A stretch of 64,000 nucleotides of DNA, taken from the NCBI RefSeq assembly GCF_009932475.1, contig NZ_BJOV01000001.1, forward strand, positions 248,001 through 312,000, written 5' to 3'. This document shows positions 15,591 to 28,429 of the stretch, in pieces; within the stretch, counting starts at the first letter, position 1, and the number at the start of each line of letters is the position of its first letter. The notes under the pieces were generated by a model, which ran no database searches, was not told where the DNA came from, and saw nothing but the letters and a program-made list of their open reading frames with translations. This stretch comes from Gordonia spumicola. GTDB lineage: Bacteria; Actinomycetota; Actinomycetes; Mycobacteriales; Mycobacteriaceae. The position numbers and the translations under genes are program-made.

Positions 15591-17198
15591 TCAGCCGGTG
15601 ATTCCGAGGGCCCGGATGCGGGCGTACAACGTGGTCCGACTGATGCCGAGAGCCTTGGCCGCTGTGCTCTTGTTGCCTTCCGCGGTGGACAGTGCCGCCA
15701 CGATCGCCTGACGTTCGGCCTGCTCGAGTCCCATCAACTTGGATGCTCGCGTCGACGCCTGGTAGTCGACGGGCAGGTCGATCGAACCGACCGTGCGTGA
15801 GCCCCGTGCGGCCGACGCGTCGGCCGCACGGCGGAGGACGTTGGTCAGTTCGGTGAGATTCCCCGGCCATTCCTGGCACACCAGAGCATCGGCGGCGTCG
15901 GACCCGAGATCGAGGCGCGGGTCGATTCTGGCGAGAGCTTCCTGCCCGAGTGCCGCGAGTTCCGTGGGTCGGTCGCGGAGCGGAGGCAGAACGATTCGCC
16001 GCCCGCAGCACGCCGTCAACGCGGCGACAGTCGGGGCGAGTGATTCCGGGGGACCGGTGACGACGATGATCGGGGGATCGGACGGGTTGTTCGACGCCAC
16101 GGCCGAGTGCATCAGCCGCAGGGACCTCTCGTCGAGAAGGTCCGCGCCGTCGAAGAGCACCCCGTCGCCCGACAGCCGAGCCTGACGCAGGACCGCTGTC
16201 ACATCGACCGGGGAGCCGTCGAGGATGGCCGCGGCGACGTCGACGATCGTCGCCCGATCGTCGGGCAGGCACGCGCGAGCTCGCGTCGAACGGCCCGTCC
16301 CCGGCTCGCCGCAGACCGCGGTGGTCGCGCCGACTGCGACCGGCACCGTCAACGGCACGGCGGTCGCCGATCCGACCTCGGGGCGCAGGCGGAACACGGC
16401 CGCGTGCGCGACGCCCGGAATCCGGTCGATCGCAATCTGCGCCACCGCACCGGAGACGAGGGTGATCGTCGACGGCATGAGGCGATCGTGGAGCAGGAGA
16501 CGGAGGGTTCCGAAGTCGGCCGGGGCGAGCAGGCCCGCGGCCAGGGCGTTGGTGAGCTGGAGGTCGTCGCCGACGGCGGCGACCGCGTAGTCGCGGCGAG
16601 CCGAGGCCTGCTCGAATGCGGCGATCACCGTGCGGTGCTCGGCGTGTGAACGGCTGAGGAGTCGGTCGGCGATATCGTCGACCAGTCCGCGCACGAGTGG
16701 GACCGACAGCGGGTTGATCCGGTCGGCGACCTCCGTCATGCAGATGATGCCTGCCACGCGACGGGTCGCCGGGTGGATGATTGGTCTGCCGAAGCAGCTC
16801 AGGGAGCGGAACTGCTCCAGATAGTGCTCACCGCTGTTGATGACGACGTCGCCGCGGACTTCGGCCGTGGTGCCGAGCGCCGTGGTGCCCATCGCCTCCT
16901 CGTGGAACGACGCGCCGTCGATCGCCCCGATGTCCTCCAGGCGCCGTTCGAGCGTCGAATCCGACGACACGCGGGCCACCATCCGGCTCTGGCTGTCGAC
17001 GAGCAGCAGCGCCGTCGACGTTCCGCTGAGCACTTCGGCCGCGCGAGCGAGTACCGGTCGCGCGGCGTCGAGCAGGGGATCGGCGGCCGCGATGTCCGAC
17101 AGGACGGGCTCGGGTCGGTCGTCGGGGAGCAGTCCCGACGACTGGACTCGCCGCCAGGAGGCGGCGATCACGTCACGGTGTGGCAGGGCGGTCGGCAC
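15591..17198 (-). CDS. AcoR/MimR-like regulator (GAF plus degenerate AAA+ plus Fis-type HTH)
   Basis: A 535-residue protein laid out like bacterial enhancer-binding proteins. An N-terminal sensor region of GAF type (about 40-200) contains the segment GASFHEEAMGTTALGTTAEVRG, typical of AcoR-like proteins. A central AAA+-derived region begins with a modified Walker A, GEPGTGRST. The C-terminal Fis-type helix-turn-helix has NKSTAAKALGISRTTLYARI. The GAFTGA loop needed to contact sigma-54 is not present and the central region is short, as expected in actinobacteria, which lack sigma-54. It probably activates the downstream aldehyde/alcohol dehydrogenase genes with SigA-type polymerase. A role at the nearby acetoin-like operon is possible. 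GTG start at 17198 has only a weak ribosome site. Confidence 0.78.
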   Translation of the reverse strand: MPTALPHRDVIAASWRRVQSSGLLPDDRPEPVLSDIAAADPLLDAARPVLARAAEVLSGTSTALLLVDSQSRMVARVSSDSTLERRLEDIGAIDGASFHEEAMGTTALGTTAEVRGDVVINSGEHYLEQFRSLSCFGRPIIHPATRRVAGIICMTEVADRINPLSVPLVRGLVDDIADRLLSRSHAEHRTVIAAFEQASARRDYAVAAVGDDLQLTNALAAGLLAPADFGTLRLLLHDRLMPSTITLVSGAVAQIAIDRIPGVAHAAVFRLRPEVGSATAVPLTVPVAVGATTAVCGEPGTGRSTRARACLPDDRATIVDVAAAILDGSPVDVTAVLRQARLSGDGVLFDGADLLDERSLRLMHSAVASNNPSDPPIIVVTGPPESLAPTVAALTACCGRRIVLPPLRDRPTELAALGQEALARIDPRLDLGSDAADALVCQEWPGNLTELTNVLRRAADASAARGSRTVGSIDLPVDYQASTRASKLMGLEQAERQAIVAALSTAEGNKSTAAKALGISRTTLYARIRALGITG

Positions 17199-17261: not shown

Positions 17262-18194
17262 TCACGCGTCCTGACGGGCGGCGACGGCCGACTGGTACAG
17301 GCGTCCGGCGCGGTACGAGGACCGCACCAGCGGTCCCGACATGACGCCGAGGAAGCCGATCTCTTCGGCGCGCCTGCTCCAGTGCACGAACCTCTCCGGC
17401 TTCACCCACCGGTCAACCGGATGGTGACGCGGCGACGGACGAAGGTACTGGGTGATGGTGACGAGGTCGCAGCCGGCGTCGTGTAGATCGCGGAGGGCTT
17501 CGTCGATCTCGTCGTCGGTCTCTCCCATGCCGAGGATCAGGTTCGACTTGGTGATCAGTCCGGCGTCGCGCGCGTCGGAGATGACGCCGAGCGACCGTTC
17601 GTACGTGAACGCCGGGCGGATCTTCTTGAAGATGCGCGGCACGGTCTCGACGTTGTGGGCCAGGACGCTCGGGCGGGTCTCGAAGACCTCGTCGAGCAGG
17701 TCGGCCCGACGGTTGAAGTCGGGGATGAGCAGCTCGACGCCCGTGTCCGGGCAGGACCGACGGATCTGGCGTACGGTCTCGGCCCACAGCCAGGAGCCGC
17801 CGTCGTCGAGGTCGTCGCGGGCGACTCCGGTGACGGTGGCGTACCGGAGCCCCATCGTGGCGACCGATTCGGCGACTCGTCGGGGTTCGTCGGTGTCGAG
17901 GGCCGCGGGTCGACCGGTGTCGATGTTGCAGAAGTCGCAGCGTCGGGTGCACTGTTCGCCGCCGATGAGGAAGGTGGCCTCCCGGTCTTCCCAGCACTCG
18001 AAGATGTTGGGGCACAGGGCTTCCTGGCACACCGTGCGGAGTTGTTCGCTCCGGACGAGGTCGTTGATGGCGAGGAACTCGGGCCCGGTCTTCGCGCGTG
18101 CCCTGATCCAGTCCGGCTTCGTCTCGATCGGGGTCTGCGAGTTCCGGACTTCGAGTCGCAGCAGTTTGCGCTGGGGATCTCGTGCTGACGTCAT
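17262..18194 (-). CDS. lipA: Lipoyl synthase
   Basis: A 310-residue radical-SAM enzyme that inserts two sulfurs into octanoyl groups on lipoyl domains. The auxiliary cluster cysteines are C56, C61 and C67 (C-x4-C-x5-C). The radical-SAM triad is CTRRCDFC (C82, C86, C89). The C-terminal RSSYRAG motif holds the serine ligand of the auxiliary cluster. ATG at 18194 is chosen because AGGAGT lies 5 bases upstream; a longer frame from 18224 lacks support. No lipB is nearby. The gene diverges from the operon for a 2-oxoacid dehydrogenase complex that contains a free lipoyl protein, so it is probably a dedicated copy, like AcoS in some acetoin operons (inference). Confidence 0.93.
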
Positions 18195-18241
18195 GGTTAC
18201 TCCTAGGTCACATTCGACCACCACTTGTGTGATGGATTACA

Positions 18242-18325: not shown

Positions 18326-19318
18326 ATGGCAGATGCTGTGACCCGCGAGGAGGCGCTGGAGCTGATGGCTCGCATGGTGCGGATTCGCAAATTCGAGGAG
18401 CTGGCGGCTCGCCTGCGCGCCAAGGGACTGATACCGGGCTTCCTGCACCCGTACATCGGCCAGGAAGCCGTCGCGGTCGGCGTCTGCGCCGCGCTCGGCG
18501 ACGGTGACGTCCTCACGAGCGCGCACCGCGGCCACGGTCACATCCTCGGCCGCGGCGCCGACCCGGCCAAGATGTACGCCGAGCTCTTCGCGCGAGTGAC
18601 CGGCTACAACCGCGGCAAGGGCGGCTCCCTGCACATGATCGACACCGAGCTCGGCTTCCTCGGGGCCAACGGCATCGTCGCCGGCGGCATCCCGCTGGCG
18701 ACCGGAGCCGCACTGCAGCTCAAGCGTGCGGGCGACGGCTATGTCGCCGTCACCTTCTTCGGCGACGGCGCGTCGAACGAGGGCGCGTTCCACGAGTCGA
18801 TGAACCTGGCCGCACTGTGGAAGCTGCCCGTGCTGTTCATCTGCGAGAACAACCTGTACGGCGAATTCACCCGCCAGGACAAGCACCAGCTCGTCACCGA
18901 CGTCGCCGACCGCGCGGCGAGCTACGTGATGCCCGGCGTCGTCGTCGACGGCAACGATGTGCTCGCGGTCCAGCAGGTGACCGCCGAGGCCGTCGAACTC
19001 GCACGCACCGGCGGCGGCCCGACCCTCATCGAGGCGAAGACCTACCGTCATCGGGGCCACTTCGAGGGCGACATGGCTCGCTACCGTCCGAAGGACGAGG
19101 TCGCCCACTGGATGGGTCGCGACCCGATCGACCTGTTCGCCGCGGTCCTCACCGACCGCTGGGGCGTCTCCGCGGACGAGATCGACAATCTCAAGACCGA
19201 GGTCGCCGAGGAGCTCAAACGTGCGGCGGCGTGGGCCGAGGAGCAGCCGTTCCCCGAGCCGTCCGACGCCCTCACCGACATCTACGTCAACGACTACGAA
19301 GGAGCGATGCTGCGATGA
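18326..19318 (+). CDS. Thiamine-diphosphate-dependent 2-oxoacid/acetoin dehydrogenase E1, alpha subunit
   Basis: A 330-residue E1-alpha of the AcoA/PdhA type. Catalytic features are LTSAHRGHGHILGRGADP and the ThDP-Mg motif starting GDGASNEGAFHESMNLAALW and ending in NN of ICENN. With its beta partner it decarboxylates or cleaves a 2-oxo/acetoin-type substrate and passes the acyl or aldehyde unit to lipoamide. ATG at 18326 has AGGAG 6 bases upstream. A longer in-frame ATG at 18245 overlaps the palindrome and is rejected. It is the first gene of a long co-directional operon. Similarity of order and lack of an E1 C-terminal extension favour acetoin-dehydrogenase-like enzymes, but true substrate is open. 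Confidence 0.88.
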   Translation: MADAVTREEALELMARMVRIRKFEELAARLRAKGLIPGFLHPYIGQEAVAVGVCAALGDGDVLTSAHRGHGHILGRGADPAKMYAELFARVTGYNRGKGGSLHMIDTELGFLGANGIVAGGIPLATGAALQLKRAGDGYVAVTFFGDGASNEGAFHESMNLAALWKLPVLFICENNLYGEFTRQDKHQLVTDVADRAASYVMPGVVVDGNDVLAVQQVTAEAVELARTGGGPTLIEAKTYRHRGHFEGDMARYRPKDEVAHWMGRDPIDLFAAVLTDRWGVSADEIDNLKTEVAEELKRAAAWAEEQPFPEPSDALTDIYVNDYEGAMLR

Positions 19319-20298
19319 CTCGATTCACCAATGCCGACGCAGTCCGGCAGGCCATCGCCGAAGAGATGGAACGCGACCCCAACGTCATCCTCATCGGCGA
19401 GGACGTCGGCGAGCCCGGCGGCGTCTTCGGCGTCACCAAGGGACTGTGGGACCAGTTCGGCGCCGACCAACTGTGGGACACCCCGATCTCCGAGGAGGCG
19501 ATCGTCGGCGCGGCCGTCGGCGCCGCCATGGTCGGCGCTCGCCCGATCGCCGAGATCATGTTCGGCGACTTCGTCACGCTCGCCATGGACATGATCGTCA
19601 ACCAGGCGGCCAAGCTGCACTACATGACCGGTGGCAAGCTGTCGGTCCCGATGGTCGTCCGCATGGTCACCGGCACCGCGGGCTCCACCGCGGCGCAGCA
19701 TTCGCAGAGCCTCGAGTCGTGGTTCCTGCACGTACCGGGTCTCAAGGTGGTCGCTCCCGGCACCCCCGAAGACACCAAGGGCCTGATGAAGCAGGCCATC
19801 CGCGACCCCGACCCGGTCATCTTCTTCGAGCACAAGCAGGTGTACGGAGGCCGCGGCGGCCCGGCGGGCGAGGTCGTCGAAGTCGAGCCCATCCCGTTCG
19901 GCAAGGGGCGCGTGCACCGTGAGGGCACCGACGTCACCGTCGTCTCCTACCTGAAGACGATGCACGACAGTCTCGCCGCGGCCGAAGAACTCGCCGACGA
20001 AGGCATCTCGCTCGAGGTCTGGGACCCACGCACGCTCGTTCCGTTCGACTACGACGGCCTGCGCGAGTCGATCGCCAAGACCGGACGACTCGTCATCGCC
20101 CACGAGGCCGTGCAGCGCGGCGGCATGGGCGCCGAGATCGCGGCCTGGGCCGCATCGGAATGCCACGACCTGCTCAAGGCCCCGATCCTGCGCATCGGCA
20201 ACCGCAACTCGCCGATTCCGTACGCGCCGGTCCTCGAACGCGAGGTCATCCCCGGCAAGGAGCGGATCGTCGACGAGATCCGCGCGCTCGTCCGCTGA
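19315..20298 (+). CDS. 2-oxoacid/acetoin dehydrogenase E1, beta subunit
   Basis: A 327-residue transketolase-type beta subunit. Recognisable parts are IGEDVGEPGGVFGVTKGL, the conserved TPISEEAIVGAAVGAAM, and the C-terminal transketolase domain with WDPRTLVPFDYDGL. It forms the alpha2beta2 E1 with the preceding gene. The two genes overlap by 4 bases (ATGA), which helps equal production. A 45-bp gap with AAGGAG leads to the lipoyl protein gene. Confidence 0.9.
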   Translation: MTRFTNADAVRQAIAEEMERDPNVILIGEDVGEPGGVFGVTKGLWDQFGADQLWDTPISEEAIVGAAVGAAMVGARPIAEIMFGDFVTLAMDMIVNQAAKLHYMTGGKLSVPMVVRMVTGTAGSTAAQHSQSLESWFLHVPGLKVVAPGTPEDTKGLMKQAIRDPDPVIFFEHKQVYGGRGGPAGEVVEVEPIPFGKGRVHREGTDVTVVSYLKTMHDSLAAAEELADEGISLEVWDPRTLVPFDYDGLRESIAKTGRLVIAHEAVQRGGMGAEIAAWAASECHDLLKAPILRIGNRNSPIPYAPVLEREVIPGKERIVDEIRALVR

Positions 20299-20343
20299 CC
20301 GACCGATCACCACCCGATTCAACCAACCAAGGAGCGAAACAGC

Positions 20344-20613
20344 ATGGCAACCGAATACCCGATGCCGCAGTGGGGCATCACCATGGAAGAGGGCATCATC
20401 GCCGAGTGGGCCGTCGCCGTCGGCGACGAGGTCGAGGAGGGCACCGTCCTCGGCCAAGTCGCCACCGACAAGATCGACGTCGACTTCGAGTCGCCCGCCG
20501 CGGGAGTCATCGCGGCACTGCTCGCCGCGGAAGGCGACACCGTCGCCTGCGGCACCGCGGTAGTGGTCATCGCCGACGACGCCGCCGACGCGGCCGCCTA
20601 CCAGGCATCCTGA
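20344..20613 (+). CDS. Free-standing lipoyl domain protein (split E2, swinging arm)
   Basis: An 89-residue protein that is nothing but one lipoyl/biotinyl domain. It begins MATEYPMPQWGITMEEGII, typical for E2 lipoyl domains, and carries the attachment lysine K43 in ATDKIDVDFESP. In standard E2 proteins this domain is fused to the acyltransferase core. Here a stop codon (TGA at 20611) and an 11-bp gap separate it from the catalytic gene. It should be lipoylated by the divergent LipA and act as a mobile carrier between E1, E2 core and E3. AAGGAG precedes the start by about 9 bases. Confidence 0.88.
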   Translation: MATEYPMPQWGITMEEGIIAEWAVAVGDEVEEGTVLGQVATDKIDVDFESPAAGVIAALLAAEGDTVACGTAVVVIADDAADAAAYQAS

Positions 20614-20624
20614 GACGTCGACCC

Positions 20625-21365
20625 ATGACTGAACAGACCACGCGGCTCACCCGAATCCGCGCGATCATCGCCCAGCGCATGCACGCCTCGCTGTCGACGA
20701 CCGCACAGCTCACCTCGGTGGTCGAGGTCGACGTCACCGACGTCATGGACGCGCGCCGCGCGCACGGCGCGACGTTCAAGGAGCGCCACGGCGTCTCGCT
20801 GTCGCCGTTCGCGGTGATCGCCCGCGCCGCGACCCTCGCCCTGGCCGAGCACCCGCTGCTCAATTCGGCGATCGACGTCGACGCGGGCACTCGGACGACG
20901 CACCCCGAGGTCAATCTCGGCGTCGCCGTCGACACCGAGGCCGGTCTCCTCGTGCCGAACATCAAGTCGGCGCAGGACCTCGACGTCGTCGGCCTGGCCG
21001 GTGCGATAACCGAACTGGCAGGCAAGGCCCGCGGTCGCGGTCTCAAGCCCGCCGACCTGGAGGGCGGCACGTTCACGCTCACCAACACCGGCTCGCGCGG
21101 GTCGATCCTCGACACTCCCATCCTCAACGCACCGGAGGTCGGCATCCTCGCCACCGGAGCCGTGGAGCGCCGCGTCATGGCGATCGGCGAGATCGACTCG
21201 GAGACGATCGCGGTCCGCGACTGCGCGTACTTGTGCCTGACCTACGATCACCGGCTCGTCGACGGCGCCGATGCCGCCCGCTACCTGGGAACCGTCAAGG
21301 ACATCCTGGAATCGGGTCGTCTCCTCGACGAACTCGGACTCGCCCCGGCGAAGGCGTCACTGTGA
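20625..21365 (+). CDS. E2 acyltransferase catalytic core without lipoyl or subunit-binding domain
   Basis: A 246-residue 2-oxoacid dehydrogenase acyltransferase domain. The active-site motif DHRLVDG (H209, D213, G214) and the conserved FTLTNTGSRGS are present. It begins directly at the catalytic domain (TRLTRIRAIIAQRMHAS). Neither a lipoyl domain nor the roughly 35-residue peripheral subunit-binding domain is encoded in it or in the preceding 89-residue protein. A normal E2 is about 400 residues or more. How E1 and E3 dock to the core is therefore unclear. The stop overlaps the following GTG start (GTGA). Confidence 0.87.
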   Translation: MTEQTTRLTRIRAIIAQRMHASLSTTAQLTSVVEVDVTDVMDARRAHGATFKERHGVSLSPFAVIARAATLALAEHPLLNSAIDVDAGTRTTHPEVNLGVAVDTEAGLLVPNIKSAQDLDVVGLAGAITELAGKARGRGLKPADLEGGTFTLTNTGSRGSILDTPILNAPEVGILATGAVERRVMAIGEIDSETIAVRDCAYLCLTYDHRLVDGADAARYLGTVKDILESGRLLDELGLAPAKASL

Positions 21366-21844
21366 CGTTTCGTGTCGATCACCTCGGGGTGGTGGTGACA
21401 GACCTCGACGTCGCCGTCGAGTTCTTCACCACCCGCCTGGGTGCGGAGCTGACGTTCCGCATGGAACGTTTCGTCGACGACACCGAAGCGGCCCCACGTC
21501 GCCTCGGCGCCGCAGGCGGAAGCTTCGCCCTCGCGATGCTGTCGATCGCGGGGCGACAGGTGGAACTCGTCCAATGGTGGGACGGGGACGGCTCGGGAAT
21601 CGTCGACGTCGCCGACGCCCGCCGCCCCGACCGGGTCGGCGCCGCCCACCTCGGCGTCGACGTCCCGGACGTCCCGGCCGCACTGGAGAAGCTGCGGGCC
21701 GTCGACGGCGTCACCGTCGTCGGCGAACCCGTCACCTTCGAGTCCGGGGTCACACCCGGCCTCACGAATGCCTTCGTGTGGACCGGTTTCGGTGTCCTCC
21801 TCGAACTCATGGCCTGGCCCGCCCCGTCACTCGGCCATCGGTGA
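21362..21844 (+). CDS. VOC (glyoxalase/bleomycin-resistance fold) protein
   Basis: A 160-residue vicinal-oxygen-chelate protein starting VTFRVDHLGVVVTDLDVAVEFF. Likely metal ligands are the His in DHLG, Glu in QVELVQW, His in AAHLGVDV, and the final Glu in VLLELMAW. Members are metal-dependent epimerases, lyases or dioxygenases acting on small oxygenated substrates. Its place directly after the E2 gene, with a 4-base overlap, ties it to the same pathway. The length and pattern are near methylmalonyl-CoA epimerase and glyoxalase-like proteins, but no specific function is claimed. Confidence 0.75.
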   Translation: MTFRVDHLGVVVTDLDVAVEFFTTRLGAELTFRMERFVDDTEAAPRRLGAAGGSFALAMLSIAGRQVELVQWWDGDGSGIVDVADARRPDRVGAAHLGVDVPDVPAALEKLRAVDGVTVVGEPVTFESGVTPGLTNAFVWTGFGVLLELMAWPAPSLGHR

Positions 21845-21877: not shown

Positions 21878-23125
21878 GTGACCAACGACGACGCGCTCCT
21901 GCTCACTGGCGCACACATCTCGGGGAGCACCGATCGGCACGATGTGCTGATCATCGACGGCGTCATCAGCGACGTCGCCCCGGCCGGGAGGTTCCCGACC
22001 GACTCGCAGCGGTCGCCGCAACGCGTCGACCTGTCCGGCCACGTGCTGATGCCCGCGGCCGCCGAACCCCACGCCCACCTGGACAAGGCGTTCCTCGCCG
22101 ACCGGGCGGCCAACCTGACCGGCGACCTCGGCGGCGCCATCGAAGCGCTGATCAGCGTGTACCCGACGCTGTCCGCCGACGACGTCGCCGACCGGGCCCG
22201 CCGTGCCGTCGACATCGCCGTCGCCAGGGGCTTCACCGCCATCCGCACCCACGCCGACGTCGACCCGCTCGTCGGCGTCACCGGGGTCGGCGAACTGGTG
22301 AAGCTCGGCCGGTCGCGCAGCGACGTCGACCTGACCGTGGTCGCACTCGTGTCCGCGCCGGTCACCGGCGACGAGGGCGCGCAGCGTCGCCGTCTCCTCG
22401 ACGAGGCGATAGAAGCGGGTGCTCACGCGGTCGGCGGTGCGCCCGCCCTCGACGTCGACCCGCACGGCGCGGTCCGGATCCTCGCCGAACGGGCCGCCGA
22501 CGCCGGTCTGCCGATCGACCTGCACCTCGACGAGACGCTCGACGCGGGCAGCCGCACCCTCGAGACGTTCATGGGGGAGGTCGAGCGGTTGGGTCTCGGC
22601 GGCCGAGCCACCGCGTCGCACTGCGTCAGCCTCGGCCGACGCGACCTCGCCGAGGTCGTCGACGTCGCTCGACGTCTCGCCGACGTCGGCATCGCCGTCG
22701 TCACGCTGCCGCAGACCAACCTCGGTCTGCAGGCACGGGAGCACCCGACGCTCACACCGCGTGGACTGCCGCCGCTCCGGCCGTTGCTCGACGCCGGTGT
22801 CGCGGTCGCCGGCGGCAGCGACAACTGGCGCGACATGTTCAACCCGCTCGGTCGGATCGATCCGCTCGAGACGGCGGCCCTCCTCGTCGCCGCCGGACAC
22901 CTCCTTCCCGACGAGGCGGTCCACGCCGTGACCGGTGCGGCCCGCGACGCGATCGGCGCACCGGTCATCGACCGGGTCGAGGTCGGCGCCCCCGCCGAAC
23001 TCCTCGCCGTCCGCGCCGGATCCGTGGTCGAGGCGATCGCCTCCGGCACCGAGGCCCGCACCGTGATCCACCGCGGACGGGTGGTGGCACGCACCGACGT
23101 GACCACGCACCGCCCCACCCTCTGA
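21878..23125 (+). CDS. Amidohydrolase, cytosine-deaminase-like
   Basis: A 415-residue metal-dependent hydrolase. The first metal motif is EPHAHLDK (H65, H67). Further motifs are IRTHADVDP, HLDETLD, ASHCVSLG and the late aspartate region AGGSDNWRDMFNPLG. This order is that of the CodA/N-isopropylammelide group, which deaminate or open nitrogen heterocycles. A GTG start is used, with AAAGGA about 6 bases upstream. It lies between the oxo-acid dehydrogenase genes and an aldehyde dehydrogenase. An NCS1 permease, a family that carries pyrimidines, purines, hydantoins and allantoin, closes the operon. Together these suggest a nitrogenous ring substrate (inference). Confidence 0.8.
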   Translation: MTNDDALLLTGAHISGSTDRHDVLIIDGVISDVAPAGRFPTDSQRSPQRVDLSGHVLMPAAAEPHAHLDKAFLADRAANLTGDLGGAIEALISVYPTLSADDVADRARRAVDIAVARGFTAIRTHADVDPLVGVTGVGELVKLGRSRSDVDLTVVALVSAPVTGDEGAQRRRLLDEAIEAGAHAVGGAPALDVDPHGAVRILAERAADAGLPIDLHLDETLDAGSRTLETFMGEVERLGLGGRATASHCVSLGRRDLAEVVDVARRLADVGIAVVTLPQTNLGLQAREHPTLTPRGLPPLRPLLDAGVAVAGGSDNWRDMFNPLGRIDPLETAALLVAAGHLLPDEAVHAVTGAARDAIGAPVIDRVEVGAPAELLAVRAGSVVEAIASGTEARTVIHRGRVVARTDVTTHRPTL

Positions 23126-23156: not shown

Positions 23157-24638
23157 ATGACCACCGCCTTCACCCGTGGACCCTGGACCACGCTCAACCT
23201 CCCGACGGCCGACCAGACGTTCTGCGTCACCGGCAACGGCACCCTCGACAGCATCGACCCCACCACCGGCGAGGTCGTCGCGACCCTGTCGGTGTCGACG
23301 ACCAACGCCGAGGTCGACCAGGTGGTCGCCGCAGCGCATGAGGCGATGGCGTCGACGCCGTGGCGCAACGACGGCGCCCGCCGCGCCCGCGTCCTCAACC
23401 GCTACGCCCAGGGCTTGCGCGACAACGTCGACTTCCTCGCCGAACTGCTCACCCGCGAGCAGGGCAAGACCATCGGCGAAGCCCGCACCGAGGTGCTGTC
23501 CTCAGCGGAGATGGTCGAGTACTACGCGGGCGCCGCTCGGATGCTGTACGGCCGCGCGATGGCGCTCGGCGACAACGCCCACGCCGTCATTCTGCGCGAA
23601 CCGATCGGGGTCGTGGGCGTCATCACGCCCTGGAACTGGCCGCTCCTGCTGATGATCCGGGCGATCGCACCCGCCCTCGCCGCGGGCAACGCCGTCGTCG
23701 TCAAACCTGCCAGCGTGACTCCCGCGATCACCGTCGAAGGACTCGCGCCGCTGGCGGCCGACCCCGAGCTGCCTGCCGGGATCGTCTCCTGCGTCCTCGG
23801 TTCCGGCGGCATCGTCGGCGACGCCGTCGTCACCAATCCCGGCGTCGACATGATCGCTTTCACCGGCGAGTCGAGCACCGGCATCAACGTGATGAAGCGC
23901 GCCGCGGACGACCTCCGCAAGGTGTCGCTGGAACTCGGCGGCAAGTCGCCGAACATCGTCTTCGCCGACGCCGACCTGGACAAGGCGCTCGACGGCGCGC
24001 TGAACGCCGCGTTCTCCACCAGCGGCCAGATCTGCACCGCGGGCAGCCGCCTCCTCGTCGAGGACTCGATCTACGACACGTTCATGGCTCGCCTCACCGA
24101 GCGCGTCGAGGCGTTCCGCATCGGCGACCCGCTCGACCCGGCCACCACCATGGCGCCCGTCGTGTCGAAGTCGCAGCAGAAGTCGGTCACCGAGTACGCC
24201 GAGATGGGCCGCGACGCGGGCACCGTCATCGCCGAGGCCACCGTCCCCGCAGACGCTCCCGACACCTCGTGCTACGTCGCCCCCATCGTCATCGGCGACC
24301 TCGCGTCCGACTCGCCGGTCGTTCAGGAGGAGATCTTCGGACCCGTGCTCGTCGTGCAGCGATTCGCCGATGAGGCCGAGGCCGTCGAGATCGCCGAGGA
24401 CAGCGAGTTCGGTCTCGCCGCGGGAATCTGGACGAGCGATCTGAATCGCGCATGGCGCATGGGCCGGGCGGTCAGCGCAGGCTCGGTGTGGATCAACACC
24501 TACCATCACTTCTACGCCGAAGCCGAGGTCGGCGGTTTCAAGAAGTCTGGTCTGGGCCGCCAGCAGGGCGTCACCGGGATCGAGGAGTTCACCGAGACCA
24601 AGCACCTCAACTTCGACATCGCGGACACGCTGTGGTGA
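23157..24638 (+). CDS. Aldehyde dehydrogenase family protein, operon copy
   Basis: A 493-residue NAD(P)-dependent aldehyde dehydrogenase with LELGGKSPNIVFADADLD (general base) and the catalytic Cys in FSTSGQICTAGSRLLV. The cofactor stretch is TPWNWPLLLMIRAIAPALAAG. It is distinct from the copy at 13946 and is part of the E1-E3 operon. AGGAGA precedes the ATG. Its stop overlaps the GTG of the isomerase gene (GTGA). It would convert an aldehyde intermediate to an acid, such as a 2-oxo acid semialdehyde or a simple aldehyde released by the thiamine-dependent complex (inference). Confidence 0.88.
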   Translation: MTTAFTRGPWTTLNLPTADQTFCVTGNGTLDSIDPTTGEVVATLSVSTTNAEVDQVVAAAHEAMASTPWRNDGARRARVLNRYAQGLRDNVDFLAELLTREQGKTIGEARTEVLSSAEMVEYYAGAARMLYGRAMALGDNAHAVILREPIGVVGVITPWNWPLLLMIRAIAPALAAGNAVVVKPASVTPAITVEGLAPLAADPELPAGIVSCVLGSGGIVGDAVVTNPGVDMIAFTGESSTGINVMKRAADDLRKVSLELGGKSPNIVFADADLDKALDGALNAAFSTSGQICTAGSRLLVEDSIYDTFMARLTERVEAFRIGDPLDPATTMAPVVSKSQQKSVTEYAEMGRDAGTVIAEATVPADAPDTSCYVAPIVIGDLASDSPVVQEEIFGPVLVVQRFADEAEAVEIAEDSEFGLAAGIWTSDLNRAWRMGRAVSAGSVWINTYHHFYAEAEVGGFKKSGLGRQQGVTGIEEFTETKHLNFDIADTLW

Positions 24639-25423
24639 CCCGCGCCATCTCGATCGAGCTGATCTGGCGCGATCGACCGTTCCCCGAGCGTGCCGTCGCC
24701 GCCGCACGGGCAGGCTTCGACCTCGTCGACCTCTGGGACCGCCGGACCAGCGACCTCCCGGAACTCGCCGAGGCGTGTGCGGACAACGGCATCGGCATCA
24801 ACGGCTTCTTCGGCAACCGGGACAACGGTCTCGCCGACCCGGACGGCGGCTCCGCCGCTCTCGACGAGATCGCCCGCAACCTGGAGGCCGCTCACGAGGT
24901 CGGCGCCCGTCAGCTGCACGTGTTCTCCAACGCCATCCTCCCCGGCGGAATCGTCAAAGCGGTCCCCGCGCCGCGCGTCACCGCGTGGGGCACGGCCGTG
25001 GAGAACCTGTCCAAGGCGGCCGACATGGCGCGTGAGGCCGGTGTCCAGCTGATGCTGGAGCATCTGAACTCGGTGTACCTGCCCGGATACCTGTGGAGCG
25101 ACGCGGGGGCGGTCGCGGCCGTCGCGCGGGAGGTCGGCCGTGCCGAGGTGCGCGGCGTCTTCGACACCTATCATCAGCAGCTCACCGCGGGTCGTCTCGT
25201 CGACACCCTGATCGCAGGGTGGGACCAGTGGGGCCGTATCGACATCGCGGGCGTCCCCGGACGGTGCGAGCCGGGCAAGGGCGAGATCGACTTCCGCTAC
25301 CTGCAGTCGGTCATCACCGAACGCGGATGGGACGGTCCGATGACCTTCGAGATCACCCCCTCCGGCGACCCCGATGACGCGATGACGCTCATCGACGACA
25401 TCTTCCCCAAGGACCGACCATGA
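24635..25423 (+). CDS. TIM-barrel sugar isomerase/epimerase, hydroxypyruvate-isomerase-like
   Basis: A 262-residue xylose-isomerase-like TIM-barrel protein. Candidate metal ligands are the Glu in LMLEHLNS, Asp-His in FDTYHQ, and Glu in MTFEITPSG. The pattern PGRCEPGKGEIDFRYL, which follows a metal-binding Asp, is typical of hydroxypyruvate isomerase (Hyi)-like members. The probable chemistry is isomerisation between a hydroxy-aldehyde and a 2-keto compound. GTG start at 24635 overlaps the ALDH stop, and its own stop overlaps the E3 ATG by 4 bases. It is thus strictly co-translated within the pathway operon. Confidence 0.8.
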   Translation: MTRAISIELIWRDRPFPERAVAAARAGFDLVDLWDRRTSDLPELAEACADNGIGINGFFGNRDNGLADPDGGSAALDEIARNLEAAHEVGARQLHVFSNAILPGGIVKAVPAPRVTAWGTAVENLSKAADMAREAGVQLMLEHLNSVYLPGYLWSDAGAVAAVAREVGRAEVRGVFDTYHQQLTAGRLVDTLIAGWDQWGRIDIAGVPGRCEPGKGEIDFRYLQSVITERGWDGPMTFEITPSGDPDDAMTLIDDIFPKDRP

Positions 25424-26790
25424 CTGACTACGAAAACGACCTGGTGATCCTGGGCGGCGGTTCCGGCGGCTACGCGGCCGCGCTGCGCGCCGCAGGCCTC
25501 GGATTGACGGTGACGCTCGTCGAAGCCGACGAACTCGGCGGGACATGCCTGCACCGTGGATGCATCCCGACGAAGGCGCTCCTGCATGCGGGCGAGGTGG
25601 CCGAGACGGTCCGCACCGCGGGCAAGCTCGGCATCGGAGCCGAGTTCACCGGCATCGACGTCGCCGCCGTCCAGAAGTACAAGAACGCCATCGTCTCTCG
25701 CCTGCATCGAGGTCTCGCCGGTCTCGTCGGCGTCAACGGCATCACGGTCGTCAAGGGATACGGCACACTCGTCGACGGGCACACGGTCATGGTCGACGGC
25801 GATGCCGTCCGCGGCGAGCACATCGTCCTCGCCACCGGCGCGGCTCCGGTCGTGCCGCAGGCGTTCGCGTTGAGCTCCACGGTTCTGACCAGCGATCAAG
25901 CGCTCGACCTCGACCGGATCCCCGACAGCGCGATCATCCTCGGCGGTGGCGTCATCGGCGTCGAATTCGCCAGCATGTGGTCGTCGATGGGAGCCGAGGT
26001 GACGATCGTCGAGGCGGCCGACCGCCTCGTCCCCGCCGAGGACCCGGAGCTCGCGGCTCGTCTGCAGCGGGCGTTCAAACGCCGGAAGATCGTCATGCGG
26101 ACCGGTACCATGATGACCGGCGTCACAAGTTCGGACGCGGGTGTCGAGGTCGCTCTCGACGACGACTCGACCATCGCGGCGGACGTCCTGCTCATCGCGG
26201 TCGGTCGTGCGCCGGTCAGCGGGAGCCTCGTCGAATCCGGCATCGAGATCGATTCCGCGGGCTTCGTCGTCACCGACGACCGCCTACGGACGAGCATCGA
26301 CTCGGTGTTCGCGGTCGGCGACCTGGTTCGCGGTCCTCAGCTCGCACATCGTGGGTTCGCCCACGGCGTCTTCGTCGCCGAAGAGATCGCGGGCACGAAC
26401 CCGACTCCCGTCGATGACGACGGCGTCCCCCGCGTCACGTACTCCCAGCCGGAGATCGCTTCGGTCGGCCTGTCCGAGGCCGCGGCCACGGTGGAGTACG
26501 GCGGCGACGTCCGAACGGTCACCTACGACCTCGCAGGCAACGGGCGATCTCAGATCCTCGCCGCATCGGGTCTGGTGAAGCTCGTCCTCGCGCCCGACGA
26601 TCGGGTGCTCGGAGTACATCTCGTCGGCGAACACGTCGGCGAGCTCATCGGTGAAGCCCAGCTGCTCACTCAGCTCGGCGTACCGGCGACGGATGCGGCA
26701 CGGCTCGTCCATGCCCATCCGACACAGGGCGAAGCCCTGGGGGAAGCGCTGCTCATGGCGGTGGGCGCGCCCTTGCACGCACACAGTTGA
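25420..26790 (+). CDS. lpdA: Dihydrolipoyl dehydrogenase (E3)
   Basis: A 456-residue pyridine-nucleotide disulfide oxidoreductase. The FAD motif is ILGGGSGGYAAALRAA, the redox-active disulfide is GGTCLHRGCIPTKAL, and the NAD motif is ILGGGVIGVEFASMW. The C-terminal catalytic His-Glu pair is in HAHPTQGEALGE. It reoxidises dihydrolipoamide on the free lipoyl protein of the same operon, giving NADH. It sits five genes away from the E2 core, with catabolic genes in between, which shows those enzymes belong to the same unit. Length is usual for lipoamide dehydrogenases. Confidence 0.92.
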   Translation: MTDYENDLVILGGGSGGYAAALRAAGLGLTVTLVEADELGGTCLHRGCIPTKALLHAGEVAETVRTAGKLGIGAEFTGIDVAAVQKYKNAIVSRLHRGLAGLVGVNGITVVKGYGTLVDGHTVMVDGDAVRGEHIVLATGAAPVVPQAFALSSTVLTSDQALDLDRIPDSAIILGGGVIGVEFASMWSSMGAEVTIVEAADRLVPAEDPELAARLQRAFKRRKIVMRTGTMMTGVTSSDAGVEVALDDDSTIAADVLLIAVGRAPVSGSLVESGIEIDSAGFVVTDDRLRTSIDSVFAVGDLVRGPQLAHRGFAHGVFVAEEIAGTNPTPVDDDGVPRVTYSQPEIASVGLSEAAATVEYGGDVRTVTYDLAGNGRSQILAASGLVKLVLAPDDRVLGVHLVGEHVGELIGEAQLLTQLGVPATDAARLVHAHPTQGEALGEALLMAVGAPLHAHS

Positions 26791-26914
26791 CGTGGTCCCC
26801 GAGAAGCCCGGTTCGGACGTCCCCGTCCGACCAGGCTCCGCAGATCTGGGCAGTGAACCTCTTTCAAACGACCCGCAGTGCCGACAGCACTCCTCGAGTA
26901 AGGCGGTGGACACA

Positions 26915-28429
26915 ATGATTGATCCACATTCCGCAGTGAAACCCAGCGAGCAGATCGAACGCGAACTCGCCGAGAAGTACAAGCAGCCCAAGAACGTCGA
27001 ACAGTTCGGCGTCGAGCGAATCCCCGATGAACTGAGGACCGTTCGCTGGTGGGACATCTTCGCGATCTTCCTGAACTTCCTCATCAACCCGGGCACTATC
27101 ACCATCTCGGGAATCCTGATCGCCGCGGGCCTCGGCTTCTGGCAGGCCATGGTGACCGGTGTCCTGAGCATCCTGATCGGCTTCTCGGTCTACCTGATCG
27201 CCGCGACGGTCGGCTCCGACTACGCGATCCCCGGCCTGGTCAGCATGCGTGCGATCTTCGGCATCCGAGGCGCCGCGATCACGTCGATCCTCCGCGCGCT
27301 CTCCAGCATCTACTGGTTCGCGTTCCAGACGGTCGCCGCGTCCCTCGGCATCGCGATGGTCCTGCACCGGCTCTTCGACCGCGACTTCTCCCTGATCTGG
27401 ATCAGCGTCGGCTGCGCGGTCCTGCAGCTCGTCGTCTCGATGTACGGCTACCACGCGCTCGCCAAGCTCTCGCGGTTCGCGTTCGTCTACAAACTGATCT
27501 TCTCGTGCGTCATCATCGTCATGCTGATGACGTTCCCCGAAGACGGCTACGCGCCGAGTGAGGTGCTCAGGTTCGCCGGCTCCGATCACGGCCAGATCAC
27601 CCTGATGGCGTTCTGGGCGTTCGCGTGGGGCACCTCGTGGTTCACGAACTTCACCGACGCCGCCGACTTCTGCCGCTACACCAAGTCGCGCAAGGAGATG
27701 TGGCTCGGCACCCTGCTCGCAGCCATCGTCGGCCAGTTGATCTGCTCGTTCATCGGCGGCTACGCCGTCGCCGCGCTCGGCGGTGACATGGGCCCCGAGG
27801 ACAGCGCGCTGACCGTCATCGTCGACACCACCCGCGGTTCATGGATCCTGCTCGTCCTGCTGCTCGTCTACGTCGTCCTGGACGCCTGGATGATCAACGT
27901 GCAGAACCTGTACACCGCCGGACTGGCGATCACCTCGCTGTTCTCGCGGGTCGGCCGCTTCTGGGGCACGCTCGGCGTCGGCATCCTCGGCATCGCGCTG
28001 TCGATGTCGTCCACGTTGATCAGCGGTTTCGACGGGTACATGGACGCGCTCGGCAACATCTTCGCTCCGCTGGCGGGCGTCTTCGTGGCCCACTACGTGA
28101 TCCTGCAGAGGTGGGGGATGCAGGTGGACGAACTGTTCACGCACCGCGACAGCCGCTACTGGTACTGGGGAGGTGTCAACTGGGTCGCCATGATCGCCGT
28201 CGCGGTCGGCATCCCGGTCAACCACCTGGTCCCGCAGGAGTACGGCAACATCCTGGTCTCGGCGGCGTTCTCCGGACTGGTGTACCTGGTTCTCGTGCGG
28301 CTGTCCAAGAGCGGTTCGGACCAGCTGACCAACGCGCTGTACCCGATCCCGCACCGTCCGACCTTCTCGTACATGAAGGGCGACGCCTCGGTCGACGCGG
28401 TCCGGAGCGACTACGTCGCCGCGGACTGA
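26915..28429 (+). CDS. NCS1 family (purine/cytosine/hydantoin-type) permease
   Basis: A 504-residue integral membrane protein with about 12 hydrophobic segments. It begins with a hydrophilic N-terminus followed by WWDIFAIFLNFLINPGTITI, typical of the NCS1 family in the LeuT fold. Further conserved stretches are FRAIFGIRG-like (MRAIFGIRGAAI) and TNFTDAADFCRYTKSR. It should import a nitrogen-containing ring compound or vitamin with protons or sodium. ATG at 26915 has a GGCGGTGG stretch upstream; a GTG three codons earlier is also possible. The 124-bp gap from E3 holds a weak hairpin near 26812-26830, so expression may be partly separate. It likely delivers the operon's substrate. Confidence 0.88.
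   Translation: MIDPHSAVKPSEQIERELAEKYKQPKNVEQFGVERIPDELRTVRWWDIFAIFLNFLINPGTITISGILIAAGLGFWQAMVTGVLSILIGFSVYLIAATVGSDYAIPGLVSMRAIFGIRGAAITSILRALSSIYWFAFQTVAASLGIAMVLHRLFDRDFSLIWISVGCAVLQLVVSMYGYHALAKLSRFAFVYKLIFSCVIIVMLMTFPEDGYAPSEVLRFAGSDHGQITLMAFWAFAWGTSWFTNFTDAADFCRYTKSRKEMWLGTLLAAIVGQLICSFIGGYAVAALGGDMGPEDSALTVIVDTTRGSWILLVLLLVYVVLDAWMINVQNLYTAGLAITSLFSRVGRFWGTLGVGILGIALSMSSTLISGFDGYMDALGNIFAPLAGVFVAHYVILQRWGMQVDELFTHRDSRYWYWGGVNWVAMIAVAVGIPVNHLVPQEYGNILVSAAFSGLVYLVLVRLSKSGSDQLTNALYPIPHRPTFSYMKGDASVDAVRSDYVAAD

Follow-up and report, generated by a model that had tools for sequence, protein, structure and literature searches.

In the textbook 2-oxoacid dehydrogenases, a multidomain E2 covalently carries the lipoyl arm and docks both E1 and E3. 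Their E2 core comprises 24 or 60 chains, and their overall reaction, an oxidative decarboxylation, yields acyl-CoA and NADH. The E2 component of acetoin dehydrogenase, AcoC, is of the hydrolase type, and in the glycine cleavage system the free lipoyl protein GcvH travels from one separate enzyme to another. LbpA of sulfur oxidation likewise consists of one free lipoyl domain and has its own lipoylation genes close by; in PMC6067878 it is defined as a GcvH-like protein mostly having two conserved Cys residues and adjoining hdr genes. How much of the E2 architecture is needed has already been asked in work on actinobacterial AceF and OdhA (PMC10415282).

In this study, a locus was analyzed within the window, that is, the whole 64,000-nucleotide stretch of DNA under analysis. 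Like the complexes PDH, ODH, and BCKDH, the locus encodes E1-alpha/beta, a lipoyl domain, a CAT-fold E2 catalytic domain, and E3, but unlike them it places the lipoyl and catalytic domains on separate proteins and has neither a peripheral subunit-binding domain (PSBD) nor a multidomain E2. With acetoin dehydrogenase (AcoABC) it shares a PDH/acetoin-type E1 and a lipoyl protein whose best model is PRK14875, whereas its E2 is of the CAT type in place of the hydrolase-type AcoC and the PRK14875 score stays below cut-off. The lipoyl protein is a free carrier as GcvH is, with E1, E2, and E3 as partners instead of the P and T proteins; it resembles LbpA in being free and single-domain with a lipoylation gene nearby, and differs in its single Cys and its E1/E2/E3 neighbors. 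The split, untethered arrangement is probably a variant of known 2-oxoacid dehydrogenase chemistry that is new in its carriage. In the open-access literature, which was covered by titles and abstract starts and outside which most subscription papers lie, no description was found of E1 and E3 accompanied by a free lipoyl protein and a bare E2 devoid of a PSBD. If nature runs such a system without a covalent arm or a docking domain, and does so in several lineages, the need for the architecture becomes testable with small soluble proteins, and such a layout in distant bacteria questions the need to hold these enzymes in one large complex.

Gene organization of the locus

The E1-alpha gene (18326..19318, + strand; 330 aa from the presumed ATG at 18326, ATG 18245 being also possible, with profile scans run from 18317) matched PF00676 with an E-value of 7e-81 and scored near, yet below, the cut-off of the PDH E1-alpha model (TIGR03182, 353 bits versus 394); its nearest solved relative was the human PDH E1-alpha. 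The E1-beta gene (19315..20298, +) matched PF02779 and PF02780 as well as NF006667 above cut-off, and the three Pfam matches of the pair indicated a ThDP-dependent E1 of the alpha2beta2 type. Downstream of the lipoyl and E2 genes described below, the row continued on the + strand with a VOC/glyoxalase-like protein (21362..21844; PF00903, E 9e-9), a cytosine-deaminase-like amidohydrolase (21878..23125; PF07969, with cytosine deaminases as best solved relatives, E 2e-28), an aldehyde dehydrogenase (23157..24638; PF00171, E 2e-153), a hydroxypyruvate-isomerase-like TIM barrel (24635..25423 from a presumed GTG start, scanned from 24608; PF01261, with TIGR03234 at 124 bits below its cut-off of 353), the E3 dihydrolipoyl dehydrogenase (25420..26790; TIGR01350 above cut-off, 438 versus 409 bits), and an NCS1-type permease (26885..28429; PF02133, E 5e-46), for which the 5' limit is approximate as 26885 is no start codon. 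Overlaps of 4 nt occurred at four junctions, namely E1-alpha/E1-beta, E2/VOC, aldehyde dehydrogenase/hydroxypyruvate-isomerase-like gene, and the latter/E3. The E1-alpha, E1-beta, lipoyl protein, E2, and E3 genes thus all lie on the + strand in a tight row and, together with the profile matches, this bore out the original prediction that both E1 subunits and E3 belong to the same operon.

Divergent from E1-alpha, a second lipoyl synthase gene, lipA (17262..18224, - strand; TIGR00510 above cut-off), was found, and the other lipA copy in the genome, 75% identical, adjoins the housekeeping E2 gene. An AcoR/DhaR-like regulator (15591-17198, -) showed in Pfam a Fis-type HTH and a weak AAA lid without the sigma-54 AAA core.

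The free lipoyl protein and the bare E2

The free lipoyl protein (20344..20613, +; 89 aa) matched PF00364 with an E-value of 2e-17, and its other Pfam matches up to E 1 were weak barrel-sandwich look-alikes only. Lys43, within a T-D-K motif, is the putative lipoylation site and would accordingly carry the lipoyl group. Its best NCBIfam model was PRK14875 (acetoin dehydrogenase E2), scoring 74 bits against a cut-off of 307 over the lipoyl part only. The glycine cleavage system to which the split had been likened proved a fitting parallel in mechanism but not in family: PF01597 (GCV_H) gave no match on the lipoyl protein up to E 1, by which its assignment as GcvH was ruled out. Assignment as LbpA, as defined in PMC6067878, was ruled out by the one Cys, the lack of PF01597, and the E1/E2/E3 neighbors.

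The bare E2 catalytic domain (20625..21365, +; 246 aa) matched PF00198 with an E-value of 2e-66 as its sole Pfam match up to E 1, and carries neither a lipoyl domain nor a PSBD. Its motif YDHRLVDG, which contains His209 and Asp213, aligned to the motif of the C. glutamicum E2p, and the active-site motif is intact. The TGA of the lipoyl gene lies at 20611-20613, the E2 ATG follows 11 nt further, and the reading frames of the two genes differ (20344 being 1 and 20625 being 0 modulo 3). The Pfam matches and the differing frames confirmed the predicted placement of the lipoyl domain (89 residues, K43) and the acyltransferase core (246 residues, H209/D213) in separate genes. A 401-aa open reading frame (20160-21365) also spans the E2 gene; it was rejected as a longer protein, being merely the E2 frame held open upstream through high GC content.

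A structural model of the window E2, built on a 23-sequence alignment, reached a mean pLDDT of 89.4, and the catalytic domain of C. glutamicum AceF (PDB ID: 6zzi) was the best PDB match of this predicted structure (TM 0.92, 45% identity). The window E2 was 48% identical to the housekeeping E2 of its own genome, which has the two lipoyl domains and the PSBD that the window E2 is without. With the actinobacterial E2p (AceF/SucB_Actino) it shares the catalytic-domain lineage, the fold, and a similar C-terminal length. In actinobacterial AceF, the trimeric state is kept by a three-residue insertion containing a Phe, according to PMC10415282. In a by-eye comparison, the C-terminal region of the window E2 had the AceF-like length with Leu in place of the key Phe. 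As the length of this trimer-keeping region is retained, the window E2 is probably a small free trimer, with the Leu-for-Phe replacement making its state unsure.

Absence of the subunit-binding domain

In Pfam searches up to E 1, no PSBD (PF02817) was detected on the lipoyl protein, E2, E1-alpha, E1-beta, or E3; profile searches of the lipoyl and E2 genes, as had been proposed, returned PF00364 on the former and PF00198 on the latter without any E3-binding domain, in agreement with the predicted absence of the domain from both. On other E2s, the PSBD was recognized by the same Pfam library with E-values of 3e-11 to 3e-18, so that the absence is not plain insensitivity. Throughout the genome (4.9 Mb, 99.97% complete), PF02817 was found once, on the 585-aa housekeeping E2, and the idea that the operon or genome conceals a further PSBD was thereby dismissed. 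PF00198 had three matches genome-wide, namely the housekeeping E2, the window E2, and a 1293-aa frame that we take to be OdhA/Kgd.

Pfam up to E 1 also gave no PSBD on fused lipoyl-catalytic E2s of a genome of the window's genus (L041) and of Rhodococcus plasmids (L047, L048, L049), two of which (L048, L049) adjoin a long one-piece E1. Kribbella pittospori (L097, 9824-10726) has an E2 with PSBD and catalytic domain and without a lipoyl domain, and the 3 kb downstream of its E1-beta yielded no lipoyl gene.

Close relatives of the locus

Three Actinomadura genomes encoded the closest counterparts, with identities to the window of 80-82% for E1-beta, 54-59% for the free lipoyl protein, and 61-63% for the bare E2; no relative closer than 82% for E1-beta or 63% for E2 was seen in the genomes searched. 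A free lipoyl gene lay downstream of the close E1-beta in all three, and their bare E2s (L051, L052, L053) matched PF00198 alone in Pfam. The bare E2 followed the lipoyl gene at a distance of ~3.6 kb in one genome (G486, locus L052) and ~11 kb in another (G487, L159), and the two genes were on separate contigs in the third (G485); given these distances and separate contigs, the partnership of lipoyl protein and bare E2 in Actinomadura is less certain. In three Actinomadura loci the VOC gene again adjoins that of the bare E2, and LipA, the amidohydrolase, and the VOC gene were common to L052, L159, and the window (LipA of L159 being cut by the stretch end). The E2 gene of L052 begins within the last part of an M24 peptidase-family gene. 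A second E1-beta in G486 (L154) and in G485 (L158), of another E1 lineage, also has a free lipoyl gene ~114 nt downstream.

Within the window's genus, E2 matches in 58 further genomes did not exceed about 53% identity, and the operon therefore looks rare there. A class-wide E1-beta search at E 1e-125 returned, among 394 genomes, the own genome only, and when the window lipoyl protein served as query at E 1e-14, 14 of the 394 matched, the 13 others having their matches in frames of 378-863 aa; the split layout was uncovered by neither search.

Wider distribution of free lipoyl genes

The description of the split as unusual for a 2-oxoacid dehydrogenase was right but too narrow, as the layout recurs in several lineages. 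In G093, an actinomycete of the same order, the row consists of E1-alpha, E1-beta, a lipoyl gene (81 aa), E3, and E2 (244 aa); a search of this genome with the window lipoyl protein was negative at E 1e-10, and the lipoyl gene was found in the gap between E1-beta and E3. Among plasmids, the same query yielded 21 records, mostly fused E2s, and pointed to a module on a plasmid of Streptomyces sp. NBC_00564, comprising E1-alpha, E1-beta, and a 77-aa lipoyl protein with no annotated E2 within the 16 kb seen. Plasmids of Paraburkholderia sp. PGU19, Diaphorobacter sp. HDW4B, and P. sprentiae carry E1-alpha, E1-beta, a lipoyl gene (76 aa), and a bare E2, and one plasmid of Azospirillum sp. B510 carries an E1-E1-lipoyl set and a lipoyl-E2 pair in two places. 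On pAt15955 of Agrobacterium tumefaciens (L168, 3524-7007), a fused E1, a free lipoyl protein, and a separate alpha/beta hydrolase with lipA nearby resemble a hydrolase-type acetoin dehydrogenase with a split E2. Sphingobium sp. RAC03 and TomTYG74 have more free lipoyl genes, not directly adjoining E1 in the stretches seen, and deep-branching actinobacteria, too, have free lipoyl genes next to E1. Many such genes are annotated merely as "lipoyl domain-containing" or "biotin/lipoyl-containing" proteins.

Of the 396 genomes in an actinobacterial sample, 110 gave lipoyl matches at E 1e-22, mostly in long frames, and 13 places, chosen mostly for short open frames, were inspected closely. E1-alpha, E1-beta, and a free lipoyl gene were present together in seven (L213, L214, L216, L217, L218, L221, L222). 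In three others (L215, L219, L220), the lipoyl frame measured 79-183 aa and no E1 match accompanied it; of the remaining places, L223 was truncated where its contig ends, L224 proved to be an ordinary fused E2, and L225 was a lipoyl match at a contig edge, again with no E1 match. The E1 of L217, L218, and L222 was 60-68% identical to that of the window, and these loci have in common with it a hydroxypyruvate-isomerase-like gene and an aldehyde dehydrogenase, the latter present in L218 as fragments only; no E2 match was found within the 12-13.5 kb read. Around their E1-lipoyl genes, an SDR gene was seen in addition and, by eye, tautomerase-like, isochorismatase-like, and, in L217 and L218 only, M24-like genes.

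PF00198 was searched in ten genomes including the near-complete G525 and G666, whose E1-lipoyl modules are L221 and L214, respectively. Four catalytic domains were found in G525 and three in G666, all in frames of 380-457 aa. Among the six of these seven that were scanned (a 402-aa G525 frame being left out), no bare E2 was found; all six had a PSBD and five had an in-frame lipoyl domain.

All nine bare E2s entered into the tree below (the window, L147, L164, L167, L052, L166, L176, L051, and L053) matched PF00198 alone. The four proteobacterial ones (L164, L166, L167, L176) read DHRVING instead of DHRxxDG. A damaged active site with Asn for Asp was considered and dropped, as the title of PDB ID 1dpb, whose source is presumably Azotobacter, names Asn614 in the catalytic mechanism of E2p, and the motif was read as an ordinary AceF-type feature.

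Phylogenetic analysis

In a tree of 41 E2 catalytic domains, three rows of which had long branches, the window and the three Actinomadura E2s grouped together (99/91) among actinobacterial E2s. The G093 E2 adjoined the Rhodococcus-type E2s, which are fused yet without a PSBD in Pfam (90/80), and the four proteobacterial bare E2s grouped together (98/95) beside AceF-type fused E2s (joint group 100/98). A single clade of all nine bare E2s was rejected by the AU test (p-AU 5e-44), as was a clade of G093 with the proteobacterial bare E2s (p 3.5e-59), and a single clade of the five actinobacterial bare E2s was rejected less strongly (p 0.009); the groups tested had been named after the gene layouts were read. 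On the basis of these rejections, bare E2s are firmly placed as having arisen at least twice, and three origins are likely.

The E1-beta tree was drawn from 65 places in the loci gathered, in which the next lipoyl gene was free in 27, fused in 35, absent in two, and cut in one. After removal of the cut row and of 12 others that were duplicates or near-copies, 13 in all, 20 free, 30 fused, and two without remained; since lipoyl and E2 queries had been used to collect the loci, these proportions are not frequencies. Along the tree, the free/fused label changes five times, at least four of them forced by well-supported branches; several branches are long, and a meeting of long branches near L154/L158 and L173 was flagged by the program. 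A clade of seven (100/100), all free, comprised the window, Actinomadura, L217, L218, and L222, and another all-free clade (97/85) comprised G093, Streptomyces, and four proteobacterial modules. G093 and the proteobacterial modules thus belong to one E1-beta clade with E2s from different lineages. As the simplest reading, the trees suggest that E1 plus free lipoyl protein is a module with its own history, to which catalytic domains were locally added or in which they were replaced.

Proposed mechanism and alternative explanations

From these observations, we consider it fairly probable that the product of the operon is a lipoate-dependent dehydrogenase of 2-oxoacids or acyloins, operating with a diffusible lipoyl carrier and without a multidomain E2 scaffold. 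Diffusion of the carrier, as originally predicted, would follow naturally from the split layout. In the proposed scheme, the ThDP-dependent E1 would decarboxylate or cleave the substrate and load the acyl group onto the free lipoyl protein, which would diffuse to the probably trimeric E2; E2 would pass the acyl group on to CoA, and E3 would reoxidize the dihydrolipoyl arm. The chemistry would be that of a standard 2-oxoacid dehydrogenase, the novelty being confined to carriage by a free protein, akin to H-protein shuttling in glycine cleavage.

The bare E2 that shares a row with E1 and the lipoyl gene in the window, in G093, and on three proteobacterial plasmids speaks for this untethered reading. 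Against it stand several E1-lipoyl modules without a nearby bare E2, two of them in the near-complete genomes in which none was found.

Tethering might instead be supplied in trans, with the E1 and E3 of the operon docking on the PSBD of the housekeeping E2 or contacting each other, and the free lipoyl protein and bare E2 acting inside or beside that complex. One PSBD-bearing E2 does exist in the genome, actinobacteria are known to run mixed PDH/ODH complexes on one E2 (PMC10415282), and G525 and G666, which have E1-lipoyl modules and no bare E2 found, bear a PSBD on every catalytic domain scanned. In that case, however, the row would have no need of a complete bare E2 and an E3 of its own, and the loss of the PSBD from all nine bare E2s scanned would argue that docking is unused; we therefore regard tethering in trans as unlikely.

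The acyl acceptor could also be other than the bare E2, for example the housekeeping E2 or, as the coupling of a free lipoyl gene with an alpha/beta hydrolase on Agrobacterium pAt15955 illustrates, a hydrolase, with the bare E2 in a side role. Since several E1-lipoyl modules lack a neighboring bare E2, the lipoyl protein may serve another acceptor there; for the window, the shared rows mentioned above and the intact active-site motif of its E2 make this quite improbable.

That one fused E2 gene was split by a frameshift, i.e., a sequencing or assembly error, has practically no chance of being correct: just 11 nt separate the two genes, but this gap has no space for a linker or PSBD, and the closest relatives, to which the original prediction had pointed as a check on a frameshift, are split too, with other genes lying between the parts. 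Nor would loss of the stop at 20611, envisaged as a refutation of the split, by itself give a fused gene, since the frames differ.

Beyond the preferred reading of a diffusible carrier in this operon, a broader one is put forward tentatively, at somewhat less than an even chance: E1 and free lipoyl protein would form a separate, scattered class of dehydrogenases needing no E2 scaffold, in which tethering is an optional optimization and not a requirement. With the same reserve, the transferase would be whichever catalytic domain the host lineage supplies, be it an actinobacterial E2, a PSBD-less actinobacterial E2, a proteobacterial AceF, or, where there is no bare E2, one acting in trans. If it is true that some modules have no dedicated E2, lipoyl carriers could be passed between systems, which bears on pathway evolution, on the annotation of such genes, and on the design of minimal dehydrogenases.

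Substrate class and translation signals

The substrate may be a 2-oxoacid or acetoin. The neighboring NCS1 permease and cytosine-deaminase-like amidohydrolase, along with the M24 creatinase-like, isochorismatase-like, and tautomerase-like genes of the relatives (the latter two labels being assigned by eye), hint at nitrogen-compound catabolism, and the gene set conserved among L217, L218, and L222 perhaps represents a single nitrogen-compound pathway.

The lipoyl gene of the window is preceded by the ribosome site AAGGAG, 9 nt ahead of its ATG, compared with a 3-base match for E2. The idea that a strong ribosome site renders the lipoyl protein more abundant than E2 was set aside as weak: across seven lipoyl/E2 pairs (the window, L052, L147, L164, L166, L167, and L176), the ribosome-site match of the lipoyl gene was longer than that of E2 in four, equal in two, and shorter in one.
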